A stretch of 64,000 nucleotides of DNA, from positions 1 through 64,000 of the forward strand of contig NZ_JACHHZ010000001.1 of the NCBI RefSeq assembly GCF_014202975.1, given 5' to 3'. The notes beneath the pieces were generated by a model, which was given only the letters and a program-made list of their open reading frames with translations, was not told the origin of the DNA and made no database searches. The translations under genes and the position numbers were made by a program. The stretch comes from Povalibacter uvarum (GTDB lineage: Bacteria > Pseudomonadota > Gammaproteobacteria > Steroidobacterales > Steroidobacteraceae). Positions 5,559 to 38,059 of this stretch are shown piece after piece; within the stretch, counting starts at the first letter, position 1, and each line of letters begins with the position of its first letter.

Positions 5559-5819
5559 ATGAGCGGCGACGACGCGCTGGCGATGATGTCCGAACTGTTG
5601 CGAATGGGGTTGGTCCTGAGCCTGCCGTTGCTGGGTGTCATCCTCCTGACGGGCGTGCTCACCGGCGTGCTGCAAGTCGTCACGCAGGTTCAGGACGCCT
5701 CGATCGCGTTTGTGCCGAAGATCATAGTCTTCGCGATTGTGCTCGCATGGCTCGCGCCGTGGATGCTGGAGCAACTGACCGCATTCGCGCTCGCCATGTT
5801 CGCGAGGCTCGCGCAGTAG
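5559..5819 (+). CDS. fliQ: Flagellar export gate protein FliQ
   Basis: Small two-helix inner-membrane protein (86 residues; about 89 is usual) of the FliPQR core of the flagellar type III export gate. Two hydrophobic hairpin helices (LVLSLPLLGVILLTGVLTG and IIVFAIVLAWLAPWML) and the internal VVTQVQDASIAFVPK are typical of FliQ/SctS. An AGAGAG stretch at 5546-5551 can serve as ribosome-binding site. It is the first gene of the operon, with fliR 27 bp downstream. In canonical clusters fliP precedes fliQ; here fliP is the last gene of the same operon, 18 kb away. Confidence 0.93.
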   Translation: MSGDDALAMMSELLRMGLVLSLPLLGVILLTGVLTGVLQVVTQVQDASIAFVPKIIVFAIVLAWLAPWMLEQLTAFALAMFARLAQ

Positions 5820-5846
5820 CCGCGTCCCGGTGAGCGTGCATCAGCC

Positions 5847-6611
5847 ATGAGCCATGAGTCTGTCCTGCCGTGGATGCTGTCAGTGGCTTTGCTGGCAGTA
5901 CGCCTCGCCGTCGCGCTCGCGCTTACGCCGCCGCTCGCTTCCTTCGGGACACCTGCCGTGGTCAGGATGTCGTTCGTGACTGCACTCGCTGCGCTGACGT
6001 TTTCTCAGCGCCCGCCTGCTGATCTCGCGACAACTGCGTCTGCCAATCCGGCCGCACTGCCGGCGGCCATCGCAACGGAGATATTTATCGGTGCGCTGCT
6101 TGGCCTGGGCGTGCAACTGCTGTTCGCTGCGCTCGCGCTCGCGGGTCGCCTGATGGACGTGCAGGTCGGCATCGCACTCGGTTCGATCTTCGATCCGGTT
6201 TCGCGGACGCAGTCGAACGTTCTCGGAACGCTGACGAGCTTGGTTGGCGCTGTGGTGTTCTTCATCAGTGATGCGCATTTGCAGCTCGCGCGGTTCATTG
6301 CCCAATCGCTCGATCTGTTCCCGCTCGGCGTCGCTCCCACGCTCGATGATCCCATGCAACCGCTCCTCGCCGCCGGTTCCATGTTCAGCTTCGGGTTCGC
6401 GCTTGCGGCGCCGGTGGTGATGGCGCTGTTGCTGACGGACGCCGCTATCGGAGTCGCTTCGCGCAACATGCCCCAGATCAACGTGCTCGTGCTCGCGATG
6501 CCCATCAAGGTTCTCGTCGGCTACTTCGTGCTCGCGCTCGCCGTGGTGGGGTGGGGGCCGTTGCTGCAGCGAGGCTTCAACTGTCTGGCCCCTTTATCAG
6601 GGGCGTGTTGA
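5847..6611 (+). CDS. fliR: Flagellar export gate protein FliR
   Basis: Polytopic inner-membrane component of the FliPQR export channel, 254 residues with about six hydrophobic segments. The family pattern RLAVALALTPPLASFGTP near the N terminus and GVQLLFAALALAGRLMDVQVG around 90-110 supports FliR/SctT. Its TGA (6609-6611) overlaps the preferred flhB ATG (6611) in TGATG, so the two are translationally coupled. The length is normal. Confidence 0.93.
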   Translation: MSHESVLPWMLSVALLAVRLAVALALTPPLASFGTPAVVRMSFVTALAALTFSQRPPADLATTASANPAALPAAIATEIFIGALLGLGVQLLFAALALAGRLMDVQVGIALGSIFDPVSRTQSNVLGTLTSLVGAVVFFISDAHLQLARFIAQSLDLFPLGVAPTLDDPMQPLLAAGSMFSFGFALAAPVVMALLLTDAAIGVASRNMPQINVLVLAMPIKVLVGYFVLALAVVGWGPLLQRGFNCLAPLSGAC

Positions 6612-7693
6612 TGCCGCAGCAGAGCAGCGACGCGGACGCCAACGAACCCGCGACCCCGTACAAGCTCGAGAAAGCCCGTGAGCGCGGATCGATCTTTCGC
6701 AGCGCCGAGCTGACCTTTGCCTTCGTGATGCTCGCCTGCGTTGCCTGCGTGTACGGACTCGGCGTGCGCACCCTCGACGCCACAGCAGCAATGCTCGGTC
6801 GTGCGCTGCAGTTCGCCTCGCGAGAGCAGATGAGCAATGTATCAGCTCTCGCGCTCAGCGAATCGCTCGCCGGGCAGATGCTGAGCGTACTCGCGCCGCT
6901 GGTGTTCTGCGTGTGGATCGCAGCCTTCGTTGTCGCTGCCATGCAGGCGCGCGGTACTTTTTCGTCTCATCCGTTGAAGCCGGACTTCACCCGCGTGAAT
7001 CCGGCGAACGGGCTGAAGAAGCTGGCTTCGCTGAAAACGCTGCACGAGCTGTGGCGCAGTCTCGCGAAACTCATCGTAGTCGGCATCGCAACGACCTTGT
7101 GGGGCCGCCATCACCTTCAGGATCTCTTGCACCTGTCTGCGCAAGCGTCCCAGCCTATGTCGCGCAGCGGCCTTGCGCTCCTCGCCTCGGTGCTGGCATT
7201 GCTGGCCGGAATCATGCTGGTGTTTGCGGCGCTCGACTGGCTCATCAATCGTTCGGAGTTCCTGCGCCAGATGCGCATGTCGCGCCGTGAGATCAAGGAC
7301 GAGCACAAGCATCGCGAAGGGGACCCGCGGATCAAGGCGCGCCTGCGCGAGCTGCGCATCGAATGGTTCAAGCGTGCACGCCAGCTCTCCCGGGTGCGCA
7401 CCGCCGATGTGCTGCTCGCGAACCCGACCCACTACGCGATCGCACTCGAATATCGGCAAGGAGAAATGCCCGCGCCGATGATCACCGCACGCGGCTCTGG
7501 CGATCTGGCGCAGCGCATGCGTGAAGAAGCGCGGCGGCGAACCGTCCCCATCGTCGAGCATCCGTCGCTCGCGCGTGCGTTGTTCAAGCTGCACGACTCG
7601 CAGGTCTTCGTGCCCGAAGAGCATTTCGATCAGGTAGCCCGGATACTGCGTTGGGTGTACGCGGCGCGCGGCGGGCAGGGGCGTGTGGCTTGA
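6611..7693 (+). CDS. flhB: Flagellar export switch protein FlhB
   Basis: Inner-membrane export switch protein that changes substrate specificity from rod/hook to later substrates. ATG 6611 overlaps the fliR stop and gives 360 residues beginning MPQQSSDADANEP; an upstream in-frame start at 6551 is unlikely. The N-terminal KLEKARERGSIFRS is typical, four hydrophobic segments follow, and the cytoplasmic domain carries the autocleavage motif N271-P-T-H274. An intact NPTH argues that the export gate is functional. The C terminus overlaps the likely flhA start. Confidence 0.94.
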   Translation: MPQQSSDADANEPATPYKLEKARERGSIFRSAELTFAFVMLACVACVYGLGVRTLDATAAMLGRALQFASREQMSNVSALALSESLAGQMLSVLAPLVFCVWIAAFVVAAMQARGTFSSHPLKPDFTRVNPANGLKKLASLKTLHELWRSLAKLIVVGIATTLWGRHHLQDLLHLSAQASQPMSRSGLALLASVLALLAGIMLVFAALDWLINRSEFLRQMRMSRREIKDEHKHREGDPRIKARLRELRIEWFKRARQLSRVRTADVLLANPTHYAIALEYRQGEMPAPMITARGSGDLAQRMREEARRRTVPIVEHPSLARALFKLHDSQVFVPEEHFDQVARILRWVYAARGGQGRVA

Positions 7694-9801
7694 GCGCGTT
7701 GGCACGCATCTTTGCCCGCAACACCGATCTTGCGGTGATCGCGCTGGTCGTCGCGATCCTGCTGGTGTTGTTCACGCCCATCCCGGCCGGACTGCTCGAC
7801 TTCCTGCTGGTCGTGAACTTCTCGCTTGCCCTGGTCGTGCTGCTGATGACGTTCTACGCGCCGCGGCCGGTCGATTTCTCGACGTTCCCAGCGATTCTGC
7901 TGATCGCAACCCTGTTTCGACTTGCGCTGAACGTTTCCGCGACGCGGCTCATCCTGACGGACGGCGATGCTGGACAGGTGATCGCTGCCGTCGGTACGCA
8001 TGTCGTGGGCGGGAACTATGTCATCGGGCTCATCGTGTTCCTCATTCTGGTGGTCGTGCAGTACGTCGTTGTGACCAGCGGTGCGCAACGCGTCTCCGAG
8101 GTCGCGGCGCGCTTCACGCTCGACAGCATGCCGGGCCAGCAGATGAGCATCGACGCGGATCTCAATATGGGCTTCATCGATCAGGACGAGGCGAAGCGCC
8201 GGCGAAAAGTCCTGGAGCGCGAAGCTGCGTTCTACGGCGCGATGGACGGCGCCAGCAAGTTCGTCAAGGGCGACGCCATCGCCGGCATCGTCATCATGCT
8301 GATCAACATCGTCGGCGGACTGATCATCGGCGTCCTGCAGCAGGATATGCCGTGGGGCGAGGCGATGCGGCACTACACTCTGCTCACGATTGGCGACGGC
8401 ATCGTGACGCAGGTGCCTGCGCTCGTGATCTCGGTCGGTACCGGGCTGATCGTGACCCGGTCGTCCTCGGACGGTCAGCTGGGCAGTGAAATGTTCCGGC
8501 AGCTGCTGGCGTTTCCACGCGCGCTGGCAGTGCTGGGCGTTGTGCTGCTCGGTGTCGGGCTGCTACCGGGCATGCCGCTCCTGCCGCCGCTCATCGTAGG
8601 CGCGAGTGCCGCGCTCGTCTTCCTATACATGAGCCGCTCGATCGCGCGGGCAGCGAGCGAGGAGGCCAATCCAGTCGCGGCGCGAGCGGCGACCGATCTG
8701 AATGCCGATCCTTACGCGGTGTTCAGCGTCGATGCGCTGGAAGTATCGATGGGCGCAGCGCTCACGGCACACGTAGGCGGCGTGCAGGGTGAACTCACCC
8801 AACGCATGGGGAGCTTCCGTACTCAGCACGCCCAGGAAAGCGGGCTCGTCGTCCCGCCCATCAGCTTCCGCGAGAATGCAGCGCTGGCCGCCGGGGAATA
8901 CCGGATCAGTCTGTTCGGTGACGTCATAGCGGGCGGCTACGTGCAGGTCGAGCGCACGCTGGCGATTCATCCGGGCGGCGACCTGTCGCTGGTACCGGGA
9001 GTCGAAACACGGGAGCCCACTTACGGCCTGCCGGCGTTGTGGATCGAACCGGAGCATCTCGAGACTGCGCGCAAGGCGCGTTACACGCTGGTCGAACCTG
9101 CCACTGTGCTGTTCACTCACTTGTGCGAAGTAATCAAGCAGCGCGCCGCCGAGCTGCTGACGCGGGCAGAAGCCGAACGCATGCTGGCCCGCGTGCGCGA
9201 GCTGCAGCCGGGGCTCGTTGAAGAGCTGGTGCCGACTCAGCTCTCGCTCAGCGACGTGCAGAAGGTTCTGCAGAACCTGCTGCGCGAAAAGGTCCCGGTG
9301 CGCAATCTGCAGGCGATCGTCGAAGGGCTGCTCGACGGCGTGCGCGCAAGCAAGGATCCAGTGCTGCTGACCGAAGTCGTCCGTCAGCGGCTGGCGGTCA
9401 GCATATGCAACAGTCTGAGTTCCGATCGTCGCACTCTGCACGTGCTGACGCTCGATCCGGCCGTCGAAGACAGTCTGATCAGCGTGACGACGCCGCAACC
9501 CCCCGGCGTTGCACCGCGTCGCCACGACCCGCGCGTACTGGACACCGTCCTCATGCGCATCAGCGCGGCGGCCGAGAAAATGGTACGGAGCAATCTCGCG
9601 CCGGTCATGCTCTGTACGCCTGACCTGAGGCGTCACCTGCGTAATCTGTGCGAGCGCGCAGCGCCGTATCTACGCATCATCTCGCTCGCCGAAGTCGCGT
9701 CCGGCTTCGAATTGCGCGCCTATGCATCGGTCTCCTTTGCCGCCACTGATGCGCCGGGCTCCCCCGCCCGCTCCGATAACTCTTCACAAGGCGCCTCATG
9801 A
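7690..9801 (+). CDS. flhA: Flagellar export gate protein FlhA
   Basis: Largest export-gate protein; it forms the nonameric cytoplasmic ring that docks chaperone-substrate complexes. TTG 7690 overlaps the flhB TGA and has a GCAGGGG stretch 8-10 nt upstream, giving 703 residues; an alternative TTG at 7651 adds 13 residues. The N-terminal half has about eight hydrophobic helices. The FHIPEP-family signature is visible as RFTLDSMPGQQMSIDADLN, and the C-terminal half is the soluble ring domain. The length is close to the E. coli protein (692), so this component is not reduced. Confidence 0.94.
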   Translation: MSALARIFARNTDLAVIALVVAILLVLFTPIPAGLLDFLLVVNFSLALVVLLMTFYAPRPVDFSTFPAILLIATLFRLALNVSATRLILTDGDAGQVIAAVGTHVVGGNYVIGLIVFLILVVVQYVVVTSGAQRVSEVAARFTLDSMPGQQMSIDADLNMGFIDQDEAKRRRKVLEREAAFYGAMDGASKFVKGDAIAGIVIMLINIVGGLIIGVLQQDMPWGEAMRHYTLLTIGDGIVTQVPALVISVGTGLIVTRSSSDGQLGSEMFRQLLAFPRALAVLGVVLLGVGLLPGMPLLPPLIVGASAALVFLYMSRSIARAASEEANPVAARAATDLNADPYAVFSVDALEVSMGAALTAHVGGVQGELTQRMGSFRTQHAQESGLVVPPISFRENAALAAGEYRISLFGDVIAGGYVQVERTLAIHPGGDLSLVPGVETREPTYGLPALWIEPEHLETARKARYTLVEPATVLFTHLCEVIKQRAAELLTRAEAERMLARVRELQPGLVEELVPTQLSLSDVQKVLQNLLREKVPVRNLQAIVEGLLDGVRASKDPVLLTEVVRQRLAVSICNSLSSDRRTLHVLTLDPAVEDSLISVTTPQPPGVAPRRHDPRVLDTVLMRISAAAEKMVRSNLAPVMLCTPDLRRHLRNLCERAAPYLRIISLAEVASGFELRAYASVSFAATDAPGSPARSDNSSQGAS

Positions 9802-10550
9802 GCGACATTGCCCACATTGCCGCCATCGGCATGCTCCAGGTACAGGAACGCCTGCAAGCAATCAGCGTGAACGCCGCGAGCGCAACCCTGCCAGGTTACC
9901 GACGTCAGGTTGCAGTCGCTCGGGACTTCGCGGCTGTGTTCGCGCCGCCGCGTGCCCAAGCCGCTTTGGACGCAGCCGGACACGTCGCGCTGTCCGCGTC
10001 GACCCATTCGATGACGCGTCTCGTCGACCTGCGACCCGCATCAACGACGCTCACCGGCCGCGCGCTCGATGTCGCGATCGATGCTGACGATCTCTTCTTC
10101 GCGCTCACTGACGGCGAACAGACCTGGCTCACGCGCAGCGGCGCATTCCAGCTCGATGAAAGCGGAGTACTGGTCGGTGAGCGCGGCCTGCGCGTCGTCG
10201 GCACCGCCGGGGATATCCATCTGCCCACGACCAACGTGACGATCGAGAGCGGCGGACAGATTCTCGACGATGGGTTGGTCGTCGGTGCTCTGCAGTTGTT
10301 CGGCGTGACGGACCGCTCGGCCATCGAGCCCTCGTCTGGCGCGCTGCTCCGGGCCGTGGACGGCATCTTCGCCGCCGATCCGGAGATGGTGCGAGTCCGC
10401 ACTGGCAGCCTTGAGGCGTCCAACACCGACGTCGCGCGCGAGATGATCGATGTGACGGCGCTCGCCCGACAGTACGAAAGCCTGAGCCGCGTGCTGCAGG
10501 GCTATGACGAGGCGCTCGGGCGCGCGATCCAGAAGCTGGGCGAGGGCTGA
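9798..10550 (+). CDS. flgF: Flagellar proximal rod protein FlgF
   Basis: Rod protein of 250 residues with the axial-protein layout: N-terminal helix with a diverged ANNVAN-like segment (SVNAASATLPGYRRQ), a central beta domain, and a C-terminal helix with LEASNTDVAREMIDVTALARQYE. It overlaps flhA by ATGA. The position immediately before flgG and the moderate similarity to it support FlgF. The N-terminal motif is more degenerate than in FlgG or FlgE of this operon. Confidence 0.85.
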   Translation: MSDIAHIAAIGMLQVQERLQAISVNAASATLPGYRRQVAVARDFAAVFAPPRAQAALDAAGHVALSASTHSMTRLVDLRPASTTLTGRALDVAIDADDLFFALTDGEQTWLTRSGAFQLDESGVLVGERGLRVVGTAGDIHLPTTNVTIESGGQILDDGLVVGALQLFGVTDRSAIEPSSGALLRAVDGIFAADPEMVRVRTGSLEASNTDVAREMIDVTALARQYESLSRVLQGYDEALGRAIQKLGEG

Positions 10551-10553
10551 CGC

Positions 10554-11315
10554 ATGTTCGATGCATTGCAGGTGGCGGCGGTCGGGTTGCAGGCGCAAAA
10601 GGAGCGCCTCGATACGCTGGCGAACAATCTTGCGAACGTGAGCACGACCGCTTTCAAACGGCAGTCGGTGGATTTCGCGTCGATTCTCGATCGTGCGCCA
10701 CGCGCCACGCGTGGTGAGCCCGTCGCCACGCCTGAAGCTCACGAGTCGCGCGTACTACGTGTGGACACTGCTCAGGGCGATGTTCATGAAACCGGTCGGG
10801 CGCTCGACATCGCTATCGTTGGGCCCGGCTTTCTGGAGGTTGCGTTGCCGGGGCAACGTACGGGCTACAGCCGCACCGGGGCGCTCAAGATAGGCGCCAA
10901 TGGCGACCTCGTGCTGGCGAGCGGACATGTGCTCAAGGCGGACATTCGCGCGCCCTCCGACGCAAGCTCGATTGAAGTCCTGGCGGACGGGCGTGTGATG
11001 GCGCTCATCGCCGACGACACGACGCCCACCCTGCTGGGCCAGATCGAACTTGCGGTCTTTCGGAACGCGGAGGCGCTGCAGTATCGCGGCGAGGGCATTT
11101 TCACCGCGCCCGACGATGCAGATCCGACCCGCATCGTGCCTGGAGAGGACGGCGCGGCCCCGCTGGCCGTGAGGAGCCTGGAAGGCTCGAACGTGCGCAT
11201 GACAGATGAGCTGGTGACGCTGATGCTGGTGCAGCGTGTGTATGAGCTGAACTCGCGAGTGTTCCAGACCGCCGATGAGCTCATGAGCATGACCAACAAC
11301 CTGAGGCGCGGCTGA
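10554..11315 (+). CDS. flgG: Flagellar distal rod protein FlgG
   Basis: Distal rod subunit, 253 residues (about 260 is usual). The N terminus has the axial motif LANNLANVSTTAFKRQ. The C terminus has the matching LEGSNVRMTDELVTLMLVQRVYELNSRVFQTADEL, typical of FlgG. It lies 3 bp after flgF, and its TGA overlaps the flgA ATG (TGATG). It builds the rod that crosses the periplasm inside the P and L rings encoded just downstream. Confidence 0.92.
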   Translation: MFDALQVAAVGLQAQKERLDTLANNLANVSTTAFKRQSVDFASILDRAPRATRGEPVATPEAHESRVLRVDTAQGDVHETGRALDIAIVGPGFLEVALPGQRTGYSRTGALKIGANGDLVLASGHVLKADIRAPSDASSIEVLADGRVMALIADDTTPTLLGQIELAVFRNAEALQYRGEGIFTAPDDADPTRIVPGEDGAAPLAVRSLEGSNVRMTDELVTLMLVQRVYELNSRVFQTADELMSMTNNLRRG

Positions 11316-12037
11316 TGCGCCCTCGATGGCTGCTGGCGACGGTGCTGCTCGGCATAAATGCATGTGCGCTCGCTGAGCGCGTCATTGTGCCCGCGTACAG
11401 CGAGGAGGCGTTGAAGGGTGCGCTCATCAATCTGCTTGACGAGCGCCTGGCAGCAAGCGACGTATCGATCGACCGCCGACGCGTGCTCCTGACCCTGTCG
11501 GGCCAGTTGCGGGAAAGGGAAACGCTCGCGGCTGAGCTGGCGGCGTTCGACGAGTTGGCCGCAGCCGCGCCGCCGTTCAGGATCTCCTTGCACACACCTG
11601 AGTCGGCGAATGTCGAACCTGTACTTCGGGCCACGCTCACTGCGACGCTGCTGCGCGATGCGACTGTGGCGCGACGGCGTATGCGCAAAGGCTCGATCGT
11701 CACTTGCGACAGCGTGGGTCGCGAGCGGCGCGAGTTTTCGCGATATCGAGACGCGTTGCTCGCCGTTCCTTGTGATTCGGGGGTTGTCGCGCTGCGCGAT
11801 CTTGCAGCGGGCGACGTAGTCCGCAGCGGAGATATCGGCGCAGCGCCGGACGTAGCGGCGGGCGAGGCAGTAAGTCTAGGAGTGCGCAGCGGCGGCGTAA
11901 GGATCACGACGCTCGCAACCGCACTGGTCGACGCGCATGTCGGCGAAGTTACCGACGTACGCCTCGACAGGCCGTCGCGCACGCTTCGCGCCCGCGTCAC
12001 CGCGCGGGGTGAAGCAGAAGTGGAGAGCGCGCGATGA
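11315..12037 (+). CDS. flgA: P-ring assembly chaperone FlgA
   Basis: Periplasmic chaperone for FlgI. Residues 1-20 form a signal peptide ending near CALAE. The C-terminal half contains a SAF-type segment (RDLAAGDVVRSGDIG) followed by VDRPSRTLRARV-like residues; I read the latter only roughly. The length is 240 (219 in E. coli). It is coupled to flgG (TGATG) and flgH (ATGA). A periplasmic chaperone retained beside flgH and flgI indicates that outer rings are assembled. Confidence 0.85.
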   Translation: MRPRWLLATVLLGINACALAERVIVPAYSEEALKGALINLLDERLAASDVSIDRRRVLLTLSGQLRERETLAAELAAFDELAAAAPPFRISLHTPESANVEPVLRATLTATLLRDATVARRRMRKGSIVTCDSVGRERREFSRYRDALLAVPCDSGVVALRDLAAGDVVRSGDIGAAPDVAAGEAVSLGVRSGGVRITTLATALVDAHVGEVTDVRLDRPSRTLRARVTARGEAEVESAR

Positions 12038-12636: not shown

Positions 12637-12638
12637 AC

Positions 12639-13748: not shown

Positions 13749-13774
13749 ATGCAACTTTACCGGAGGAATCAGTC

Positions 13775-14092: not shown

Positions 14093-14093
14093 C

Positions 14094-14845: not shown

Positions 14846-14852
14846 TCGACCC

Positions 14853-19738: not shown

Positions 19739-19780
19739 CGACAGATACGTCTGCAACGACCAGGACACGAGCGAAACATC

Positions 19781-29700: not shown

Positions 29701-32700
29701 TAACGAAACTGCGCCCGGTGGCGAGCGCGAACTCGAGACGCGCTATGAATATGACGCCCTCGGCAATCTCAAGAATCGCTACGAAGCGTATGACACCGTC
29801 GATGTGCGCATGACGACGTTCATGTATGACCGTCTCGGACGTCAGACGGAGGTACATCTGCCGGGCTATTACAGCCCGGTCACGGGACGCGTCGAGCGGA
29901 CGAGCACACAAGGAAGCTTCCGGCGCATTCAGGAAACGAAGTATGACGCGCTCGGCAACGTCGTGCTGACGCGAACGCGCAGTGGTGCAAGTGCCTGGGA
30001 CACGAACTACCAGACCTTCGATCGTCTGGGCCGACTCGTGCATGGCATAGACGCGATGAACTACGTCACCGCGTTCACCTACAACGTATTCGACGAACAG
30101 CGCACAATGACGCGGCACAGTCTTGCAGTGACTGGAGCGCCCCGCGCGAGCCTCGGCTACTGGACCGCCGCCGAGATCGCGACGCAGATGACGGGGGATA
30201 CGTCAGCCAGAACGATCACTGCCGAGTACGACAATCTGGGCCGCAAGACGCAGGTCACGCAGCCGACGGCGACACGCTACTACTTCAATGGTGCGAACGC
30301 CGGCGTGAACCCGTACAGCGTTTCACCCGTCAGTTCCGCCGGCGTCACCAAGTACGCATACACGGTGTTCGGCGATCTGTTGCGCGAGTCGGTCAAGATC
30401 GACGACTCCGGCGCGAGCGGTCGCTGGCGCGACACGCGGCATTACTACGACGTCATGGGGCGCTCGACGCACACCGTCGATGCGCTCGGATACCAGACCG
30501 AACGCACGTATGACGCATTCGGCAATCTCACCGGGACCATCGAGTATGCGAACGCGGGTGCAGCGGGCCTCGATCTGCTGACGCCACCGGCTCGACCGAC
30601 GGTGCATATCGACGATCGAATCACTACCTTCATCTACGACACGCGCGACCAGCAGCGCGAGATACAGCGTAAAGGGCTGCGCTACTCCTATCGCAGCGGC
30701 GATGGATATGCCGATCAGTGGAATGATCGAAATACCGCGACCACCGTCGCGACGCTCACGTATGACGGCGAGGGTCGCGTCACTAGCCGCACTGATGCCA
30801 TGGGTTCGGTCACCACGACGATGTATAACGCGTTCGGTCAGGTGACGAAGGTCATCGAGCCGAAGCGCCAGGCGGCCACCACGCCGTCCGGCTCGGCGAC
30901 CGACCCGTTCCGCAACCGGCGCGAGATTTCGCCGATGACGGAGTACGCGCTCAACGCCTTCGGCCAGGTTGTCACGCAGAGGCGTAGCGCCGGCGTCGAT
31001 GCTAACGGCACGCCGATCGGCGGCCGCACGCTCGTCACCGAGAACGTCTATGACTTCTCCGGCAATCTGATAGCGACGAAGGATGCGCGCGGCTCGGTCA
31101 GAAATATGCGCATTGATCACGCCGGGCGCGTCACGCACGAGACGCAGGCGATCAATGTAACCCTGGATGGCTGGCGCACGCAGTCGCACACGATCGAGCG
31201 GCGTTACGCCTACGACAAGAGCGGCCAGCAGATCGCAGTGACCGACGTCTACAACGACGAGGGCGTCGCGAGGCAGAGCGGCAAACGCTGTGACTACAAC
31301 GCCTTTGGCGAGCAGACGGCGGAATACAAGGTATGGGGCGCCGCCAGCAGCGCTCTGATGTCGCTCGACAAGGCGCTCGTAGCCTCGTTCACCTACAGCA
31401 AGGCGGGGGAGCTCATTACCCGGGTTGGGCGCGATGGTGTGACCCAGTACTACTACGACCTGACGGGTCAGATGACGCGCCAGGAGCAGGTCGGCGCGGC
31501 GTTCCTGCGCACGATGGAGATCGGCTACGACGTACTCGGCCGCGCGAAGATCCAGCGGCTGCCGCGTACCGACGTGCTGCAATCGGCGACGTTCAACAGT
31601 TACATGCAAACGGTCTCCGCGTTCTCCGAGCAGTCGTACGATCGCTGGGGCAACGTCACCGAGCGCCGCAACGGTGGCTATGTGATTCTGAACACGGGCG
31701 AGGTGAAGCGCGAGCTCGAAAGCGTCGTCAGCTATGCGTACAACGCGGACGATCAGCTGATCGCCGAGCGCCTGCCGACGATCAACGTCGCGCGCGAGAA
31801 CGGTTCGCGATACGACGCATCCGTGGTGCATGAGCTGCGCTATGACATCCTCGGGCGCGTCGTGGACGAGCGCGACCGGCTCGAAGGTCAGTCGGCAGCG
31901 CTGCGCACGCGCATCAAGGAATACGACGCGCTCGGCCAGCTCACCTCTGAGTCGGACTATTCCGGTCGTAAGATTGAATATGTCTATGACGAGCACGGGA
32001 ATCGGGTCGGCACGCTCAATGCGCTGGGCGTCCTGCTCGTGGACGCGTTCGACGCGAACGGCAATGTGCTCAGTCGCAGTGTGATACGTCGCGTACGGCC
32101 CGACGGCAAGTACGATTCGTACGATAGCCGCAACCTGGCGCACCACGGTCAAGCCATCCTGTTGGCGCAGCATCTATACGATCAGGCGAACCGTCGCGTC
32201 GGCAGTGCGAGCATCGGCGGTTCCACCGAGACGAGCAGCGATGCTTTCTGGAGCTACGTGCAACTCGATGAGCGCGGGCTGGTGCGCGCTTCGCGCACGC
32301 CCGGCGGCCGCGTGATGAGCTACGGCTACGACGAGTTCGGCAATCGAACCAGCGAAATCGATGGGCTTCAGAACGGGCAGACGTGGACCTACAGCAAGTG
32401 GGACTACGTCATCGGTGAGCTCACCCAGAGCACGGTGCGTTCAGGCTCGACCGACGTTCGCACGACTACGTATCAATACAACGAGTTCGGTCAGCTGGCG
32501 ATCGAAAATCACGTGGGCATGGGCAGCCGCAGCTACGCCTATCACGGCAACGGCTTGCTCAGGCAGATCATCGAGGACGTCACCGAAGGCACATTCGGCG
32601 AGGCGGGCGGACAGGACTTTCTGCATACGGTCGAGATCTCGAACTACGACTACACGGTGAAAGGTGAGCGTGCGCGCGAGACCTACGAGCGCAGCGCCAC

Positions 32701-35700
32701 CGGTGAGGCACACGTATTCGACGAGTACGGCGACTATCTCGACGCAGTCCACGTAACGCTTCCCGGCGTTTCGCGCACGGTAACGATGAACTACGACGCA
32801 CTGGGCCGTCTGAATTCGGTGCGCATCCCGCCGGCGGCGGGCACGTCCCGTCCTGGCTCGTGGATCATCTACACGTACGATGAGTTCGGGAATCGGCGCA
32901 ACATCCTGGCGACCTATGAGCGCGCCGGCGGCGGCAGCGGCCTGAGCAACAAGTGGTTCCACTACGATGATGACGGCCGCATGACGGCCGTCGACCTCGC
33001 GCCTCCCGGAACGTCATCGAATGATGGCACGTACATCGAATACGACGAAGTGGGTCGCCGCAGATGGACTTCCCAGTGGACCCGTCGAATTCCCGGCGGC
33101 GGCTTTCCGATAGGCGATGACGTCGACGTCTTCACGAAGACGAACTACGCGTACAACGACCTCGGTCACCTGACGCAGATCACTGCAGTCGAAAGTTACA
33201 GTGACGGACGCCCCCCTTCGGCGGAGCGCCCCGTGCTCACGCAGGAGCTCGACAAGCGCGGGCTGGTGCTGATGCAGCGCGCGTATGGATTGAACGGCCA
33301 CCGGTCCGTCACCAGCACCACCTATAATGCCGATGGTCAGGTGTTCGGCACGTACGTGAACAAGTACGTGTACAACGAGTTCGATGCGGATAACTCCTCC
33401 GCAGCGACCAACTGGTACGACGCGGTCGGCAATATCGACTACTACACGTACGAACAGGGCGGAACGACCGAAGACGGCTTCATCGACACCTACGATTACG
33501 AGTACACCTCCGCGTTCGGCGGTTACAAGGAAACGCTCGTCACAGTGACCTCCACTATGGGGCCCTCGCGGCGCGCCTACACCGAGAGTCAGTACGACGC
33601 GCGCGGCCGGCTCGTGATCCAGCGCAAGGAGAACGGTGCGAACGGACGCCGCATGCTTACGTTCTCTTACGACAACGAGGGCCGCATTCTCACGAAACGC
33701 GATTCCGACTACATCAACGTGGTGCGCACGCAGGACTACTACTACGGCGACGGTCACGAAGTCGCGAGCGTCGGCAACATCTCGGGCAACCAGTTCAGCA
33801 ACGGCTTTACGCCGATCAGCGCTTCCTATCCGGGACTCACGCCGGGCTCGTATGTGGTCGCGCAGGGCGACTCGCTCGCGAGCATCGCAATGGCAGTGTT
33901 CGGCGACAGCCGGCTGTGGTATCTGATCGCCGACGCCAATAACATCAGCGCGTCGCCGAACGATCCGCTGCCCGCATCGGAGCACGGCAAGTCGTACGCA
34001 GTTCCGAACGTCGTCAGCAATCTGCACAACGACGCGAATACGTTCGCGCCGTATAACGCAGCCCGAATCATTGGCGACAGCACGCCGTATCCACCAGTGC
34101 CTGTTCCGTCATCGAGCGGTTGCACGGCGGTCGGCAAGGTGCTCGCAGCGGTCGTCATTACAGCGGTCGCTGTGGCAGTCACAGCGTATACCGGCGGCGC
34201 GATGGCCGGCCTCCTCAGTCATGGCGTGCTCGGCACTGTGCTGGGTGGGGCCGTCGGCGCGGCGGCGGGCAATGCAAGCGGACAACTCGTCGGCATGGGG
34301 CTCGGCGTGCGCGAGGACTTCGATGCCGAAGCGGTGGGCATGTCGGCCGCGCAGGGCGCGGTGAGCAGCGCCGTGAGTCTGGCGGCCGCACCGATCGCGA
34401 GCTGGAGCTCGACGGCAGGCGAACTCGCCGCAATTGCGGCGAACCAGGCGGGTAACTATGGCCTTGCTCGACTCACAGGCCAGGACCATACATTCCGTTG
34501 GCGCGATCTGGCCGGTGACCTCGCGGGCGCGTACGCCGGGGCGCGACTCGCAAAGTACGCCGATCTCTCGACGCTCGATTCGGGCTCCTTCAAGTTCGGT
34601 ACGCGCGCGACGCGCCAGTCGTTCTCGAATCTGGTTGGCGGGTTGGTAAAGCAGGACGTCAATTACGGCGGCGAAGGCCTGTTCGCGCCGTTCGGCGCGG
34701 AGCTGGCGCGCGGCTACAGGGAGCTGATCGCCGCGCCGACGGCGAAGCCGCGCGGCAAGTCCCAAGTGCAATCCACGCAGGTGGAGCTTGGAGATGCGGC
34801 CTTTGGCGCCGCGCTGACGCCGGCGTCCTATGAGAGGCAGACACTCGTCGGCGGGGATGAACAGTCGCTCGTCATGGATGAGGCGTACGCGATGGCGAGA
34901 GCGAATCCCGGAATGATCGTCCAGGTTCCCATGCCCGATGGCGACGTGAGAATGTTGAGCATCGACGCTGATGGGCAGGAGCACTGGGAGTCCTTCGATG
35001 AATCCATCTACCACACGCTGGTGGAAGGACCGCGCGATGACACCGACCATGGAAAGGCGCCCGACCCGGTGGTGAGCGCGAGCGCGAATATCCGAGCGCT
35101 GCTGGCTGTGGCCGAAGGCAGCGGCGCACCTGAGCCCATCACATCCGAGCCCTATACGCTCGATATGCTGCGGCGGGAAATTGCTGCGATGGACGAGCAG
35201 GAGCGCCAACGGGAGGAGGCACAGCGCCGCTGGTCCGACAACGGCCCGCTGTCGTTCCACGCAAATCCGGCACTGTCGCAGCGCGCCTCCATTGCGCAGG
35301 CACAATCGCTCATTCACGACTCGCGCTTCACGTTTGGCGAGGCGCATGCGGACGCCATCTGGTCGCCCTATCCGCGCACTTTCCCGTCGCCCTGGGCTAC
35401 CCCCTTCGCTGGCCTCGGCGGCAGCGGTATCGAGGAATTCTCGGTTCGCACATCGGTCGGCGACGCATACATGTACGACGGGCTGTCGACGAACAATCAG
35501 CACATCGATGACCTCGATCGGCTCGGCCGGGCGGGTTACACCGAAATCCACATGCTGGCGAACGGACATGGCAGCGCGAACGGGCGCACGCAGGCGGATG
35601 ATTCCTTCAAGGCGCAGTACGAGCGGGCGATCGTGCAAATCGAAGCCCGGCATCCGGGGTTGAAGGTGCACATGTACAGCCTCGGCAATCCGGCCGACCT

Positions 35701-36334
35701 GATCAGGTTCGCCGAGATCCAGGCGGATACTGCGCGACATAGAATGCCGGGCGCCGCATCCCTGTATGCGATCTGCTGGGGCGTCAACGCAACAGCGAAC
35801 AGCTCACCGGCGCGTATGTCGCTGACGCTCGCTGTCCCGCGGGACGTGAACCTGCCCAAGCTCAATGACTATGGTTCGCTGCCTGTGAGCACCGGCCTTG
35901 GCCTGGCCTTCGGCGCCCTCGACATCTATCAGGGGACACGCGAAGACAACGCCGTGATCGCCTCGTTGAACTACACGAGCGGCGGTTCACAGATCCTGGG
36001 CCAGGGCTCATTGCTGTATGGCATGTTGCGAGGCTCGGAACGCGCCCTCGCAATCGGCCGCGCTGCATCGACGGTCGGCAATGCCGTGGCCGCGCCGCTC
36101 GTAGCGCTCGACATCAAGAGCGACGTTCAGAGCGGCAATCCCTACCGGTGGGTGGCCGCTCCGCTCAAGGCCATTGCGTTGCGGTGGTGGCCGGCGGCTG
36201 TTGCGGCGGTAACGATCCAGCATGGCATCCAGCCGACGGTCAAGCAGGTGCAGCAGAACCTGAGCGAGCTGCGCGAGCACGCTCCGACAATCAGCGCGAA
36301 GATGGGATCGCTGCGCAGCTATGGACGGTTCTGA
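23768..36334 (+). CDS. Giant RHS/YD-repeat protein with LysM and predicted caspase-like C-terminal domain
   Basis: 4188 residues without a recognisable Sec signal. The N terminus is Gly/Leu-rich (GHGLGLFNTSAAILGG), then FVNAATGNLILQFRDEQLAG and LHLRTYNSRG, as in other giant RHS proteins. Residues of about 90-3340 are YD repeats of the pattern YDxxGR, which in known RHS/Tc proteins build a shell. A LysM-like domain follows (YVVAQGDSLASIAMAVFGDS, near 3361-3408), then a glycine-zipper hydrophobic stretch (about 3458-3520), a charged linker, and a terminal domain. That domain has His3934 in MLANGHGS and Cys4003 in LYAICWG, each after a hydrophobic strand, which resembles clan CD peptidases. The usual RHS autocleavage motif DPxGL is not seen. 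Hydrophobic helices end the protein. Two TPR genes follow. It is probably a toxin or contact-dependent effector; the secretion route is not shown. Confidence 0.85.
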   Translation: MAAIVAGHGLGLFNTSAAILGGSSSLGLGLLGQAGGRSFVNAATGNLILQFRDEQLAGRGTDLLHLRTYNSRGAWNDADTDGWRWDGERSVRFSGVAPNRADTSVVRTDGDGNESTYNWDSARNKYVSTAGGGAHDTLEFDQDTQQWLWTEGSSRAQERYASATTDGAIGRLESQRDRSGNTITYGYDAANRLKNVTDQASGQRIELIYATVPGTSHVRLQRVDTYESASDATPTREVEYRYDSAGRLEQVRTDLNAAGGVYVTTYAYDGASERIASITQSDGSSVSFTYDAQGRIATVTDASGVQTFSYFTDPRRTDVVDALGHVWSFFYDDQDQLIEMRSPAPQANAERLSTKYEYNDAGDVWRIIDARGHAVVYEYDQNGNRTLERDALGNTVSRTYNAQNQVLTETRRRTANEPFTTRFVYDGESRLRFVVSAEGRVSESRFGSNGLMSHAIEYTGARYDVAALDPGSGLNEAQLVSWVGALQDKDEVQLTRLEYDYRGNLSKRTAYAVVDEAGEGVLDAAAVVTQFVYSGYGELLQTIAMRGATRSDGDELASYAYDGMGRETSRVDRNGTTTTQYDGVARTISIQTSAGLTEVRSYDVRGRLIGVALSSAADETRTTTYVYDAAGRQRMVIDAQGNRRFSFYDDAGRLVQEVDSVGAVTAYEYDADSRVVKQTRYVDAADTSEWTIGDPPVVTKTQLIIGETGDVRVDPDHDRTTTLEYDAAGRLVREIESGGTVTETAYDGASRAISRQTVDRLTRYFYDRDGNRIGMVDALGYLTEYKLDAAGRLVETVRYAARANGQSGGRPQANESLPPLDDVLTLWRPADGERLYSYRYYDAQGRLVGHVDERGFLTETLYDEQGNAQQTVQYMERLIVAPDDTLTSLKERAGEDRRITTVEYDEFGRVQRAVAHDGTVTNHEYDEAGRLIRQVRAEGSERQRGARIRYNAFNEITGEVGGVGDASGLSTDEAIVQFGMQYVYDTLGRRIRGHDSKGNTTLYYYDSEDRLTHTVKVVNDEEGVLAGEVSETSYTTFGQVAATRRYATRLSEAVMDELLLDGGGGAVDDTLTAPLALIRDNEIDQLAEHEYDVRGQFRQTMDAERFKTTFEYDVYGQLWQQTREIVRANARVTTTQFDYDLLGQVIETTGDLGGLNHTTSTEYDAFGRVVRTVDGAGKATRTLYHDGGRFIEVRDPLDRRVTTQFDALGRVFSVRRRIVGAGEPYVQETTYRYDDTTRVMTVTTPEGIRVRTTHTEHGEVLSIEDGRGAVRSFDYDADGRLTQRVDARGQIVEHNTYDSAGRLIETRDARGVVVRYRYDEHSRVVERTLDPGGLNERTQYRFDALGRQIRVTEVGAGIERVSQLTYDRSGQLLEVLLDPEGLELTTTYAYDGLGNVVTVQRGSRAGSDQRVTLYEFDNLGRRTHEKVALRVIERTPPGPIEHTEYLTTEYRYDAAGRVSRKIDAKGASTWFVYDDAGQLTYTVNQLGEVSRNWYDEHGQVVQTRRYARSLTSQQIALLGDVVLSVPVTSDALGDQRSYFAYDEDGRQRYMLQAYSGGNWVVSESIYDANGNVVESRRYDQFMVLPANLASADRLTDDSVRTELRSLRYFEETPASLASVQRTRYAYDANDRLRFTVDALGGVAENVYDNAGNVVSRVRYAVRPALSQYSESTINAAVNRVSADNHVSHYAYDRAGRMVYSVRVMASDAAGRGTQHIVSRNRYDALGQLVATMQYAQAVGLVNDYAAATLDAAVAGTIEADPANRSSWFAYDDAGRMEYSVRRLSAGEHIVTRQVYDDTGLVVQTIAYADTVGALSSFDKAALDAAVHPGDLDRVTSFVYDSAGRRRFTVAADGALSETVYDALGQIEEQRRFALTIPVQATPPGSAPVTPTEAQLVMVRGARAVGDAMMTRGEKYSYDASGRVLSTTDALGFTQSQTYNALGDRITFRNKNGHEWDYRYDRIGRLRSEIFKKAIYQLSNETAPGGERELETRYEYDALGNLKNRYEAYDTVDVRMTTFMYDRLGRQTEVHLPGYYSPVTGRVERTSTQGSFRRIQETKYDALGNVVLTRTRSGASAWDTNYQTFDRLGRLVHGIDAMNYVTAFTYNVFDEQRTMTRHSLAVTGAPRASLGYWTAAEIATQMTGDTSARTITAEYDNLGRKTQVTQPTATRYYFNGANAGVNPYSVSPVSSAGVTKYAYTVFGDLLRESVKIDDSGASGRWRDTRHYYDVMGRSTHTVDALGYQTERTYDAFGNLTGTIEYANAGAAGLDLLTPPARPTVHIDDRITTFIYDTRDQQREIQRKGLRYSYRSGDGYADQWNDRNTATTVATLTYDGEGRVTSRTDAMGSVTTTMYNAFGQVTKVIEPKRQAATTPSGSATDPFRNRREISPMTEYALNAFGQVVTQRRSAGVDANGTPIGGRTLVTENVYDFSGNLIATKDARGSVRNMRIDHAGRVTHETQAINVTLDGWRTQSHTIERRYAYDKSGQQIAVTDVYNDEGVARQSGKRCDYNAFGEQTAEYKVWGAASSALMSLDKALVASFTYSKAGELITRVGRDGVTQYYYDLTGQMTRQEQVGAAFLRTMEIGYDVLGRAKIQRLPRTDVLQSATFNSYMQTVSAFSEQSYDRWGNVTERRNGGYVILNTGEVKRELESVVSYAYNADDQLIAERLPTINVARENGSRYDASVVHELRYDILGRVVDERDRLEGQSAALRTRIKEYDALGQLTSESDYSGRKIEYVYDEHGNRVGTLNALGVLLVDAFDANGNVLSRSVIRRVRPDGKYDSYDSRNLAHHGQAILLAQHLYDQANRRVGSASIGGSTETSSDAFWSYVQLDERGLVRASRTPGGRVMSYGYDEFGNRTSEIDGLQNGQTWTYSKWDYVIGELTQSTVRSGSTDVRTTTYQYNEFGQLAIENHVGMGSRSYAYHGNGLLRQIIEDVTEGTFGEAGGQDFLHTVEISNYDYTVKGERARETYERSATGEAHVFDEYGDYLDAVHVTLPGVSRTVTMNYDALGRLNSVRIPPAAGTSRPGSWIIYTYDEFGNRRNILATYERAGGGSGLSNKWFHYDDDGRMTAVDLAPPGTSSNDGTYIEYDEVGRRRWTSQWTRRIPGGGFPIGDDVDVFTKTNYAYNDLGHLTQITAVESYSDGRPPSAERPVLTQELDKRGLVLMQRAYGLNGHRSVTSTTYNADGQVFGTYVNKYVYNEFDADNSSAATNWYDAVGNIDYYTYEQGGTTEDGFIDTYDYEYTSAFGGYKETLVTVTSTMGPSRRAYTESQYDARGRLVIQRKENGANGRRMLTFSYDNEGRILTKRDSDYINVVRTQDYYYGDGHEVASVGNISGNQFSNGFTPISASYPGLTPGSYVVAQGDSLASIAMAVFGDSRLWYLIADANNISASPNDPLPASEHGKSYAVPNVVSNLHNDANTFAPYNAARIIGDSTPYPPVPVPSSSGCTAVGKVLAAVVITAVAVAVTAYTGGAMAGLLSHGVLGTVLGGAVGAAAGNASGQLVGMGLGVREDFDAEAVGMSAAQGAVSSAVSLAAAPIASWSSTAGELAAIAANQAGNYGLARLTGQDHTFRWRDLAGDLAGAYAGARLAKYADLSTLDSGSFKFGTRATRQSFSNLVGGLVKQDVNYGGEGLFAPFGAELARGYRELIAAPTAKPRGKSQVQSTQVELGDAAFGAALTPASYERQTLVGGDEQSLVMDEAYAMARANPGMIVQVPMPDGDVRMLSIDADGQEHWESFDESIYHTLVEGPRDDTDHGKAPDPVVSASANIRALLAVAEGSGAPEPITSEPYTLDMLRREIAAMDEQERQREEAQRRWSDNGPLSFHANPALSQRASIAQAQSLIHDSRFTFGEAHADAIWSPYPRTFPSPWATPFAGLGGSGIEEFSVRTSVGDAYMYDGLSTNNQHIDDLDRLGRAGYTEIHMLANGHGSANGRTQADDSFKAQYERAIVQIEARHPGLKVHMYSLGNPADLIRFAEIQADTARHRMPGAASLYAICWGVNATANSSPARMSLTLAVPRDVNLPKLNDYGSLPVSTGLGLAFGALDIYQGTREDNAVIASLNYTSGGSQILGQGSLLYGMLRGSERALAIGRAASTVGNAVAAPLVALDIKSDVQSGNPYRWVAAPLKAIALRWWPAAVAAVTIQHGIQPTVKQVQQNLSELREHAPTISAKMGSLRSYGRF

Positions 36335-36878
36335 CGTGCTCGACGCGGATGAGTATCTGCACCTCGCGTTCCATGCGAGCGCGCACGGTCAGCATCATGC
36401 GTGCTTGTCGTACCTGAAGGAGGTATTGAGCCTTCAGCCGCGGAACGCGACAGCGTTGTACCTGCTCGCCACCCAGCACGCGGATCTGGGGCTGCATGCG
36501 CGCGCGATCGCGGGCATGAAGTCAGCGCTGGCCATCGATCCCGGACTAGAAGCGGCGCGCTTCCAGCTGGGCTGGATGCTGATGGACGCAGGTGCGGTCG
36601 CGGAGGCGAAGACGCACTTCGGAACACTTGCGACCAGCGCTGATCAGGCGATGCAGAGCTACGCCAGTGCACTGGGCGCGCTCGCGGACGGAAACATCGT
36701 GGCTGCGAAATCCCACATCGAGTCCGGGCTGTCGCGCAAGGTGGGGAACCCGGGGCTCACGAACATCATGATGCAATTGTTGGCGAAGCTCTCTAATGCG
36801 AAAGCGGCAACGCCTGCGAGCGAAGCGGGCACGGCGCCCGCGCCGATCAACCTCGGCGCATACGGAAACCGATCGTGA
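36321..36878 (+). CDS. TPR protein coupled to the RHS gene
   Basis: 185 residues, starting at ATG 36321 inside the 3' end of the RHS gene (14-bp overlap), so translation is coupled. There are three or four tetratricopeptide-type helix pairs: ASAHGQHHACLSYLKEVLSL, ATALYLLATQHADLGLHARA and LEAARFQLGWMLMDAGAVAE. The last 30 residues are Ala/Pro-rich and probably disordered. There is no signal peptide, so it is cytoplasmic. Possible roles are a secretion chaperone (type III translocator chaperones of the LcrH class are TPR proteins) or an immunity/adaptor protein. The sequence alone cannot decide. Confidence 0.75.
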   Translation: MDGSDVLDADEYLHLAFHASAHGQHHACLSYLKEVLSLQPRNATALYLLATQHADLGLHARAIAGMKSALAIDPGLEAARFQLGWMLMDAGAVAEAKTHFGTLATSADQAMQSYASALGALADGNIVAAKSHIESGLSRKVGNPGLTNIMMQLLAKLSNAKAATPASEAGTAPAPINLGAYGNRS

Positions 36879-38059
36879 TGAGCACACCGACCGGGCACCC
36901 GTCACGCCTCGACAGATTGCTCAGCTACATCGAGAGCGATAGCACGAACCTGGCACTGCGCAATGATGCGATCCGCGAAGCCTGCGACGCTGGCGAGTGG
37001 AAGATCGCACGCGCTCTTATCGAAAGTGGTTTGAGCAAGCACCCGGGGAGCGCGGCATTGCTCGCGTCGCTTGGGCTGGTGGAGCTGCAGGCACAGCGCT
37101 ATGTCGAAGCGGAATGTGCGCTCGTGGCCGCACTCGCAGGTGGCCTGGAAGCACCTGAAGTGCGATTCAATCTCGCGTTCTGTCGTTTCGGCCTGGGCGA
37201 CTACGCCCAGGCTCTCGAGCTGCTGGCGGACCCAGTTCTCGTGCCGGTTCTGCCGATCGCACTGCTGCTGCGCGCTCGCTGTCTTCATCACCTCGATCGC
37301 CCGCTCGAGGCAATCGCCGACTGCAAGGCCTATCTCGAGTTTGCGAGCGACGATGCGGATGCGAAAGGGTTGTTGTCGTTGCTGCTCTACGAGAAGCGCA
37401 GCCTCAGCGAAGCGCGGGGTCTATCGGAGGCTGCGCTGCTACAGAACGCAACGCAATTGGAAGCGATGCTCACGCTCGGTGCGTTAGCCGCGGACGAACG
37501 CGACTACGAGACCGCTGCGAGCACTTACCTCACACTCGTCGAGGCGCACCCGCTATGCGGTCGCGGCTGGCTTGGGCTCGCGCTCGTCGACCTGCTGCGC
37601 ATGCGTATGGACAGTGCGAAGCGCTACATCGCTCTGGCGACGGCGACGATGCCGGACCATATAGGCTCACTGCACGTGCTCGCATGGATCGAGGTCGTGC
37701 GAGGTAACTTTCCAGAGGCGAGAAGTGCCTTCCAGCGCGCGCTGTCCATCGATCGCAACTTTGCGGAAACGCATGGCGGACTCGCGGTCGTCGCGGTCCT
37801 CGAAGGCGACGGCGCTGCAGCGACCGCCTGCATCAAGCGCGCCTTGCGTCTGCAGCCTGGATGTCTCTCGGCGCGCTACGCGGATGCGCTCGCGCTGGAT
37901 AGGGCAGGCAAGCGCGAGGCAGCGCAGGCAGCCTTCGAAGAGCTGATGTCGACGCGCATCGCTGACGAAGGAGGTTCCTACCGCAGTTTCGTTGCAGCGC
38001 ATCTGCGATCGCTGCGCGACGATCCAGAGACCGCCACCATGTTCGCGACACGGCATTGA
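36878..38059 (+). CDS. Second TPR protein of the RHS operon
   Basis: About 393 residues from ATG 36878; GTG 36875 directly before it is an alternative. Either overlaps the previous stop (GTGATGA). At least seven TPR-like units are readable, such as ALIESGLSKHPGSAALLASL, YETAASTYLTLVEAHPLCGR and ARSAFQRALSIDRNFAETHG. There is no signal peptide or membrane segment, and no enzyme domain. It is the last gene of the RHS-TPR-TPR set; 80 bp separate it from the serine hydrolase. A scaffold or chaperone for the giant RHS protein is an inference from the gene order. Confidence 0.75.
   Translation: MSTPTGHPSRLDRLLSYIESDSTNLALRNDAIREACDAGEWKIARALIESGLSKHPGSAALLASLGLVELQAQRYVEAECALVAALAGGLEAPEVRFNLAFCRFGLGDYAQALELLADPVLVPVLPIALLLRARCLHHLDRPLEAIADCKAYLEFASDDADAKGLLSLLLYEKRSLSEARGLSEAALLQNATQLEAMLTLGALAADERDYETAASTYLTLVEAHPLCGRGWLGLALVDLLRMRMDSAKRYIALATATMPDHIGSLHVLAWIEVVRGNFPEARSAFQRALSIDRNFAETHGGLAVVAVLEGDGAAATACIKRALRLQPGCLSARYADALALDRAGKREAAQAAFEELMSTRIADEGGSYRSFVAAHLRSLRDDPETATMFATRH

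Follow-up and report, generated by a model that had tools for sequence, protein, structure and literature searches.

A filament-less flagellar export operon in Povalibacter uvarum and a giant RHS protein as its probable late substrate

What would a set of flagellar export, rod, ring and hook genes be for in a locus that holds no filament or motor genes? The question is raised by the window analysed here, the 64,000 nucleotides at positions 1-64000 of contig C1 (NZ_JACHHZ010000001.1) in the 6.32-Mb assembly of Povalibacter uvarum. In it 24 packed co-directional open reading frames (ORFs; 5559-23588, gaps between neighbours -85 to +42 bases) are followed by a gene for a giant RHS protein and by two genes for TPR proteins. 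A sequence-only reading of this DNA had proposed a flagellum-derived secretion machine with the RHS protein as main cargo and the TPR proteins as chaperones. The pairing of machine and cargo stands as the best explanation, and secretion itself is a step that we infer. The operon probably encodes an extra flagellum-derived type III secretion machine, without filament or torque part, whose late substrate is the giant RHS protein in the place of flagellin.

The operon and the genes downstream of it

ORF coordinates, Pfam and NCBIfam bear out the count of 24 contiguous co-directional export, rod, ring and hook genes given in the sequence-only reading. Pfam names FliQ, FliR, FlhB, FlhA, FlgA, FlgH, FlgI, FliE, FliF, FliH, FliI, FlgD, FlgE, FliM, FliN, FliO and FliP among them, together with two FlgF/G-type and two FlgB/C-type rod proteins; in NCBIfam FlgC lies above its cut-off and FlgB and FlgF under theirs. 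The same reading had described a 4188-residue RHS protein and two overlapping TPR genes downstream, and these are indeed present: the RHS ORF begins 179 bases past fliP, with overlaps of 14 bases between RHS and TPR1 and of 4 bases between TPR1 and TPR2. It had also taken the switch motif of FlhB and the FliI motifs to be intact, and NPTH (FlhB) as well as LLMMDSLTR and GSGVGKS (FliI) were found. Pfam scans, which for secretins covered the 24 operon proteins and no other part of the genome, showed neither secretin nor needle families. The features are as follows.

5559..5819, +: fliQ (Pfam PF01313, E 3.8e-19)
5847..6611, +: fliR (PF01311, E 4.6e-49)
6551..7693, +: flhB, NPTH at residue 291 (PF01312, E 5.3e-98)
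7651..9801, +: flhA, carries the stretch VVQYVVVTSGAQRVSEVAARF typical of its FlhA group (PF00771, E 4.8e-235)
9798..10550, +: flgF-like proximal rod (PF06429, PF22692; TIGR02490 E 2.3e-34, under cut-off)
10554..11315, +: flgG distal rod (PF06429, PF22692, PF00460)
11315..12037, +: flgA P-ring chaperone (PF13144, E 2.4e-17)
12034..12636, +: flgH L ring (PF02107, E 8.3e-45)
12639..13748, +: flgI P ring (PF02119, E 3.1e-110)
13745..14092, +: flgB-like rod (PF00460, E 5.5e-9; TIGR01396 E 2e-12, under cut-off)
14061..14525, +: flgC rod (TIGR01395 E 1.5e-29, above cut-off)
14522..14845, +: fliE (PF02049, E 6.8e-22)
14853..16298, +: fliF MS ring (PF01514 E 1.9e-46, PF08345 E 8.1e-14)
16285..16827, +: predicted truncated fliG, 180 aa, N-terminal and middle domains only (structure match)
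16764..17528, +: fliH (PF02108, E 1.4e-8)
17525..18856, +: fliI ATPase (PF00006 E 5.3e-85, PF18269 E 3.7e-16)
18846..19295, +: ORF in the fliJ position, 149 aa (no Pfam match; the same-position ORF of G619 matches FliJ, E 0.0047)
19292..19738, +: ORF before flgD, 148 aa, no family name (no Pfam or NCBIfam match)
19781..20185, +: short flgD hook cap, 134 aa (PF03963, E 4.6e-14)
20211..21401, +: flgE hook (PF06429, PF22692, PF00460; assigned to FlgE by length and order)
21398..22183, +: short fliM, 261 aa; EIDALL, found in the C3 FliM, is missing (PF01052, E 1.2e-11)
22099..22536, +: fliN (PF01052, E 1.1e-20)
22552..22863, +: fliO (PF04347, E 3.4e-4; 21.1 bits against a cut-off of 22)
22827..23588, +: fliP (PF00813, E 1.5e-70)
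23768..36334, +: giant RHS protein, 4188 aa, proposed cargo (Pfam and N-terminal profile)
36321..36878, +: TPR1, proposed cargo chaperone (TPR families; conserved in these loci, often adjoining RHS)
36875..38059, +: TPR2, proposed chaperone or sorting factor (TPR families; in relatives it often adjoins fliQ or follows the sigma gene)

An ordinary flagellar set elsewhere in the genome

Contig C3 of the same assembly carries a second FlhA, rod and hook genes, three flagellin-family matches and further export genes. Other C3 ORFs read as FlgJ, FlgK, FlgL, FliD, a FleQ-type regulator, FlhF, CheZ and MotA, names which were given through sequence and position and not by family scan. Because this ordinary flagellar set is present, the window operon is an extra one. 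The operon as the only flagellum of the genome, paired with filament and motor genes encoded elsewhere, is ruled out: the C3 flagellin, FliD, FlgK, FlgL and MotA adjoin their own FlhA, rod, hook and export set.

Two more kinds of locus were seen. Relatives in the genus and family possess a further flagellar locus, or one like a type III secretion system (T3SS), with the order FliN-P-Q-R-FlhB-FlhA, adjoined where seen by FliE, FliF and FliI (L052, L054, L055, L057-L060, L062); the FlhA of this third type has 37-39% identity to the window FlhA. A fourth type (L056 of G011 and L064 of G001) contains a TPR1-like ORF, FliI, FliN, P, Q, R, FlhB and FlhA, its FlhA sits on a long branch, and it is perhaps an injectisome.

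Missing filament and motor parts

The ORF at 16285-16827 has only a weak MgtE_N match in Pfam, and a sequence profile alone identifies FliG weakly (hhalign probability 37.5). Its AlphaFold model aligns best to FliG 5-192, and some lower-ranked structure alignments put the same FliG helices on the related C-terminal fold. Judged by this predicted structure, the window FliG is reduced to the N-terminal and middle domains, without the torque domain. EIDALL, which we take to be the CheY-binding motif of FliM, is present in the C3 FliM and absent from the window FliM and from the other readable rows of relatives (G619 has SEIDFF, and the G1039 row is a longer overlapping frame).

Absences were searched for with single-sequence queries, all of which matched the genome's own C3 set. 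In 128 stretches of such loci (11,961 ORFs) homologues of FlgJ, FlgL, FliC, FliD, MotA, FlhF, FleQ and CheZ gave no matches (MotB was not searched for). FlgK gave three weak matches in the 128 stretches, which by profile are FlgG, FlgG and FlgE. In this search the lack of filament and motor genes claimed in the sequence-only reading held for FliC, FliD, FlgL, MotA and FlgK. As a control the same search was run on 16 ordinary loci of other groups, where FliC was matched in 1, MotA in 8 and FlhF in 13 of the 16. FlgJ, FleQ and CheZ had no matches in these ordinary loci either, so their absence is weakly tested.

An ordinary extra flagellum could in principle draw its filament and motor from the C3 set, where flagellin, FliD, FlgK, FlgL and MotA are all encoded, and the RHS neighbour would then be incidental. 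Such a flagellum fits poorly with a FliG without torque domain, a FliM without the CheY-binding motif, filament and stator homologues not found in the 128 stretches, and RHS and TPR genes that accompany the operon across families. It is considered very unlikely.

Distribution, gene order and descent

Among 396 genomes of the order three, all in the genus of P. uvarum, have an FlhA match at E 1e-165 or better; the figures are 6 of 369 for the class and 4 of 398 for the phylum, the window genome being included each time. Two of the class matches (G520 and G694, 45-46% identity) lie outside the window FlhA group in the tree. A scan of GTDB with a 49-residue FlhA stretch returned at least 80 loci, and the distribution is a lower bound. 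Of the 80 listed, neighbouring genes and FlhA score placed 64 in the window type and 16 among the ordinary flagella of other groups. Operon holders among the loci listed include Roseateles, Ramlibacter, Rhizobacter, Herbaspirillum, Duganella, Variovorax, Andreprevotia, Dyella, Lysobacter, Pseudoalteromonas, Rheinheimera, Microbulbifer, Catenovulum, Kangiella, Paraburkholderia, Caballeronia, Novosphingobium and Sphingomonas. The operon is spread over Burkholderiales, other Gammaproteobacteria and Sphingomonadales, and across genomes it recurs together with RHS and TPR genes in unrelated families.

In a FlhA tree of 78 rows the 41 window-type rows (two of them identical) form one group with a Shimodaira-Hasegawa-like approximate likelihood ratio test (SH-aLRT) value of 100 (quick method, no bootstrap). 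This group is apart from three long-branch rows, which were taken as injectisome-like without a named injectisome reference in the tree. The window FlhA groups with two Chitinibacteraceae (95), apart from the other two copies of its own genus. This nearness to Chitinibacteraceae suggests that the operon spread by horizontal transfer.

The same 22 named flagellar genes are present in all eight full loci, which come from several families, and seven of the eight have the window gene order. In the remaining one (G1039) the fliQ-fliR-flhB-flhA block stands after fliP, with TPR1 and TPR2 between. In two Sphingomonadales loci (L183, L187) the blocks are divergent. The dN/dS values of 0.03-0.30 (seven genus pairs, where dS was computable) indicate that the operon is under purifying selection.

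The missing filament and motor genes and the short FlgD, FliM and FliG might be read as the relic of a decaying flagellum. A relic would hardly keep the same gene set in 8/8 full loci at such dN/dS values, nor be spread among distant families, with a window FlhA nearer to Chitinibacteraceae than to two copies of its own genus. Decay is extremely improbable and was rejected on the grounds of purifying selection.

Some loci show further variation. Chromosome 2 of Catenovulum sediminis holds two operon copies on one replicon and two RHS starts, each adjoining TPR1, TPR2 and a fliP end (L159, L161, L254, L255). In G663 and G1105 a gene with the FliK Flg_hook domain lies between flhA and flgF (L076:2615-4254 and L090:9372-10837), as does an extra ORF with the FlhB C-terminal domain, which in G1105 was recognised only by our own profile.

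The giant RHS protein

The window RHS protein is laid out as an N-terminal segment (residues 1-35), DUF6531 (40-117), YD repeats up to about residue 3320, a LysM-like part (3351-3425), a hydrophobic linker (3426-3600) and a C-terminus (3601-4188). The RHS repeats match PF05593 at E 3.8e-139, and a loose YD pattern has 63 matches, the last at residue 3301. DUF6531 (PF20148) scores 23.8 bits on the whole protein (cut-off 24.1) and 27.3 bits on residues 1-240. The LysM-like and linker parts are common to other RHS proteins of these genomes. Within the pool of fetched ORFs, residues 3601-4188 (588 aa) have no match but themselves; they match nothing in plasmids, and residues 3841-4188 have no match in PDB sequences.

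Operon-linked RHS proteins share the N-terminus M-[VA]-A-I-V-x-G-N-x-L-G-L. In the window protein the first 35 residues are uncharged and the top 19-residue hydropathy within the first 70 is 1.4, by which the N-terminus appears not to be Sec-like. Pfam and NCBIfam scans found no PAAR or VgrG domain in it. Of 73 matches to the N-terminal profile, 49 lie in open frames of at least 3000 aa, the longest having 8582; other RHS frames among those listed have about 900-2000 aa. Mimicry of rod, hook or flagellin N-termini by the RHS N-terminus was also considered and is unsupported (for FlgE alone 32/500 column permutations scored as high, and own flagellins scored low).

The RHS protein could instead be a structural part, for example a cap or an adhesive tip on the hook, and not a released payload. 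Hook-filament junction and cap proteins were not found in these loci, and many genomes have only one such RHS, both of which would suit a structural part. A C-terminus that is unique to each protein after the shared LysM-like and hydrophobic parts suits a payload better, and frames of up to 8582 aa also speak against a cap or tip. This alternative is judged fairly unlikely.

Association of the RHS gene with the operon

A profile of the RHS N-terminus (118 positions, 9 rows) matched 46 of the 49 genomes with the operon and none of the 19 operon-less relatives (Fisher 4.6e-14), the RHS and TPR profiles having been trained on loci found through the operon. Without the seven genomes that supplied rows, it matched 39 of 42 operon-bearing genomes. 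Operon-less here means that FlhA did not match at E 1e-165 or better; several drafts are among these genomes, and G008 contains only FlhA fragments. In the class sample of 369 genomes RHS matches below 1e-15 occurred only in G000 (the window genome), G619, G663 and G698 (G000 and G619 supplied rows), which are the four with FlhA of at least 50%. A DNA pattern for the RHS N-terminus had four matches in 16 genomes, 9 operon-bearing and 7 operon-less, and all four mark the start of an RHS gene adjoining the operon. This type of RHS is not common without the operon; had it been, that would have spoken against the cargo proposal.

Proximity was examined in 40 named genomes, which account for 41 of the 80 loci. 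Not included were the 16 loci of ordinary flagella and 23 more, most of them metagenome-assembled genomes or fragments. In 26 of the 40 (including G1167 at +16.7 kb) the contig that carries flhA also has an RHS start no more than 45 kb from that gene, compared with about 1.1 expected; after removal of the three row-supplying genomes the count is 23 of 37. In 15 of the 26, as in the window, the RHS start follows flhA downstream in the same orientation, at a distance of +16.7 to +28 kb. In G698 the RHS is on contig ends, and in G1105 an RHS-like end without the N-terminus is found at the start of the operon contig.

RHS proteins are often cargo of other systems, as the available text of PMC3482391 describes. 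The operon might accordingly encode a secretion system or surface structure while the RHS protein leaves through a type VI secretion system, Sec or lysis and is merely co-inherited and co-expressed. Two weak RHS relatives occur without window-type FlhA, which leaves this route some room. It is at odds with a window RHS without PAAR or VgrG domain and with an N-terminus that does not look Sec-like, with the co-occurrence and co-localisation of RHS and export operon, and with an RHS N-terminal segment that is conserved while the C-terminus is unique. We regard export by another route as unlikely.

TPR genes, sigma factor and promoter-like motif

TPR1 (at least 100 bits) or TPR2 (at least 150 bits) was detected in 36 of the 40 named genomes, within the stretches at hand; the best of 3354 control ORFs reached 74 bits. 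TPR1 is the labelled neighbour of RHS in 10 of 40 stretches, with weak scores of 42 and 56 bits in two. Four of these ten TPR1-RHS pairs, including one of the weak ones, are on contigs without the operon. Against the LcrH/SycD-type chaperone family TPR2 scores 38.8 bits and TPR1 11.6 bits (cut-off 104.8).

A FliA/WhiG-like sigma gene follows fliP in 20 of 22 loci checked (14/14 further fliP-holding stretches and 6/8 full loci); four of the sigma proteins score 90.6-113.5 bits for the FliA_WhiG family, whose cut-off is 189.6. The sequence TAAAC-N16-[CG]GAT is present upstream of 18 of 51 RHS genes, 16 of the 18 at -92 to -119, a count that ignores shared descent. Shuffling (200 rounds) gave a mean of 0.065 and a maximum of 1 for a motif that was noticed and then tested on the same sequences, not set beforehand. 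Elsewhere it was found at 4 of 32 TPR1 genes, 0 of 43 TPR2 genes and 0 of 928 other flagellar genes (mostly operon-internal), and its spacers have a mean identity of 33%. The standard sigma-28 consensus upstream of RHS was barely over shuffles (mean 8.4 vs 8.0). The FliA-like sigma factor may be what recognises the TAAAC motif. The FliG truncation, the sigma gene in most other loci and the promoter-like motif at part of the RHS genes go beyond the sequence-only reading. The window RHS may be read through from the operon.

The TAAAC motif was also seen upstream of a 635-aa TPR-like ORF, a 138-aa ORF and a 269-aa ORF (L145, L122, L214), possibly further regulon members. In G1039 (G1039:C1:1161913-1189541, L087-L089) two giant RHS genes have one orientation, and both carry the common N-terminus and the TAAAC motif.

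The flanks of the operon and its downstream genes (115-5295 and 38140-58193) contain a GAF/PAS histidine kinase, an epoxide hydrolase, cytochrome P460, three beta-lactamase-family genes, HipA_C, DUF4062 and a TonB-dependent receptor.

Proposed mechanism

In the machine that we propose, the operon would build the export gate, MS ring, rod, P and L rings and hook. Upon completion of the hook the gate (the NPTH switch of FlhB, with FlhA) would export RHS as a late substrate, for which the N-terminal ~35 residues of RHS are proposed to act as export signal. The task of keeping RHS unfolded and delivering it to the gate would fall to TPR1 and perhaps to TPR2. In most relatives the FliA-like sigma factor encoded after fliP would switch on RHS, and in some TPR1, late. 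Outside the cell RHS would refold as a shell with a variable C-terminal payload.

Several observations weigh against this mechanism. Three operon genomes (G004, G1105, G1170) have no RHS profile match, and weak RHS N-terminus matches occur in G499 (6e-12; a 29% FlhA fragment) and G491 (1e-10; no FlhA match). In 14 of the 40 named genomes flhA has no RHS start within 45 kb: 12 carry it on other contigs only, G1180 carries it on the flhA contig but 404 kb away, and G1170 has none. In G012 no RHS was found in the downstream part of the operon contig that was read, the RHS being on another contig. Upstream of 33 of the 51 RHS genes the exact TAAAC motif is lacking; sigma gene and motif are both absent from the window, and the sigma gene also from G619. 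The likeness of the RHS N-terminus to axial proteins, set against other genes, is not significant (133 of 500 column permutations were as high). Finally, we know of no precedent for export of 4000-8000 residues through a flagellar channel.

The ORFs adjoining the RHS genes of G499 (L264) and G491 (L265) look leucine-rich.

Comparison with known systems

With the canonical flagellum, for which the C3 set served as yardstick, the window set has in common the export gate, ATPase, MS ring, rod, P and L rings and hook proteins. In contrast to it, no filament, junction, cap, stator or chemotaxis homologues were found in window-type loci (MotB again not searched for), the window FliG is by its model truncated, FliM has no CheY-binding motif, and giant RHS and TPR genes are attached.

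Filament-less hook-basal bodies are described for Buchnera, which kept export, rod, ring and some hook proteins and lost fliC, motA and motB (PMC8109811). That is a reduced endosymbiont flagellum with flgK and a 38 kDa FliG, and the available part of PMC8109811 names no secreted cargo; the window set is an added one, apparently horizontally spread, with a cargo candidate. The flagellar T3SS of Lysobacter enzymogenes likewise keeps export genes without flagellin, and its export of foreign flagellin needed flhB and fliI (PMC7277350). There the export genes are not one operon, and Rhs is never mentioned in PMC7277350. Non-flagellar T3SS, including the secretin-less systems of Myxococcales, are similarly flagellum-derived export without motility. 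According to the accessible part of PMC3459982, the latter lack FlgBCDEK, FliEG and FlgH and the other non-flagellar T3SS recruited secretins; the window operon, in contrast, keeps rod, P and L rings and hook and contains no secretin.

RHS polymorphic toxins, as covered in the available text of PMC3482391, also have YD repeats, a conserved body and a variable C-terminus; the operon-linked RHS proteins differ in being far longer, in their distinct N-terminus and in being tied to a flagellar export operon. Flag-3 of Enterobacterales is another extra flagellar locus beside a primary one. As far as the accessible part of PMC7526173 goes, flag-3 loci hold 46/47 of the primary-flagellum proteins including FliC, unlike the filament-less window set. 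No description of a system like that of the window was found among the titles and abstract openings that the literature searches listed; these left out most subscription journals and bioRxiv, and the result is weak evidence of novelty.

Significance

Taken across its holders, the system could be a third type III lineage beside flagella and injectisomes. We favour this broader view with some reserve: a hook-type system, horizontally spread in Beta-, Gamma- and Alphaproteobacteria, which no longer has filament or rotation, both lost, and exports giant RHS polymorphic proteins, mostly with its own sigma factor and promoter. Surveys in which clusters of at least 10 flagellar genes without a secretin are classed as flagella, a criterion given in the available text of PMC3459982, would miss such systems. 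If the proposal is true, this is a present-day flagellum turned secretion system, halted at another point than the injectisome, with rod, rings and hook kept and filament and motor lost. The debate on the transition from flagellum to secretion would then become testable in cultivable environmental strains, and RHS proteins of 3000-8600 residues would have an export route.

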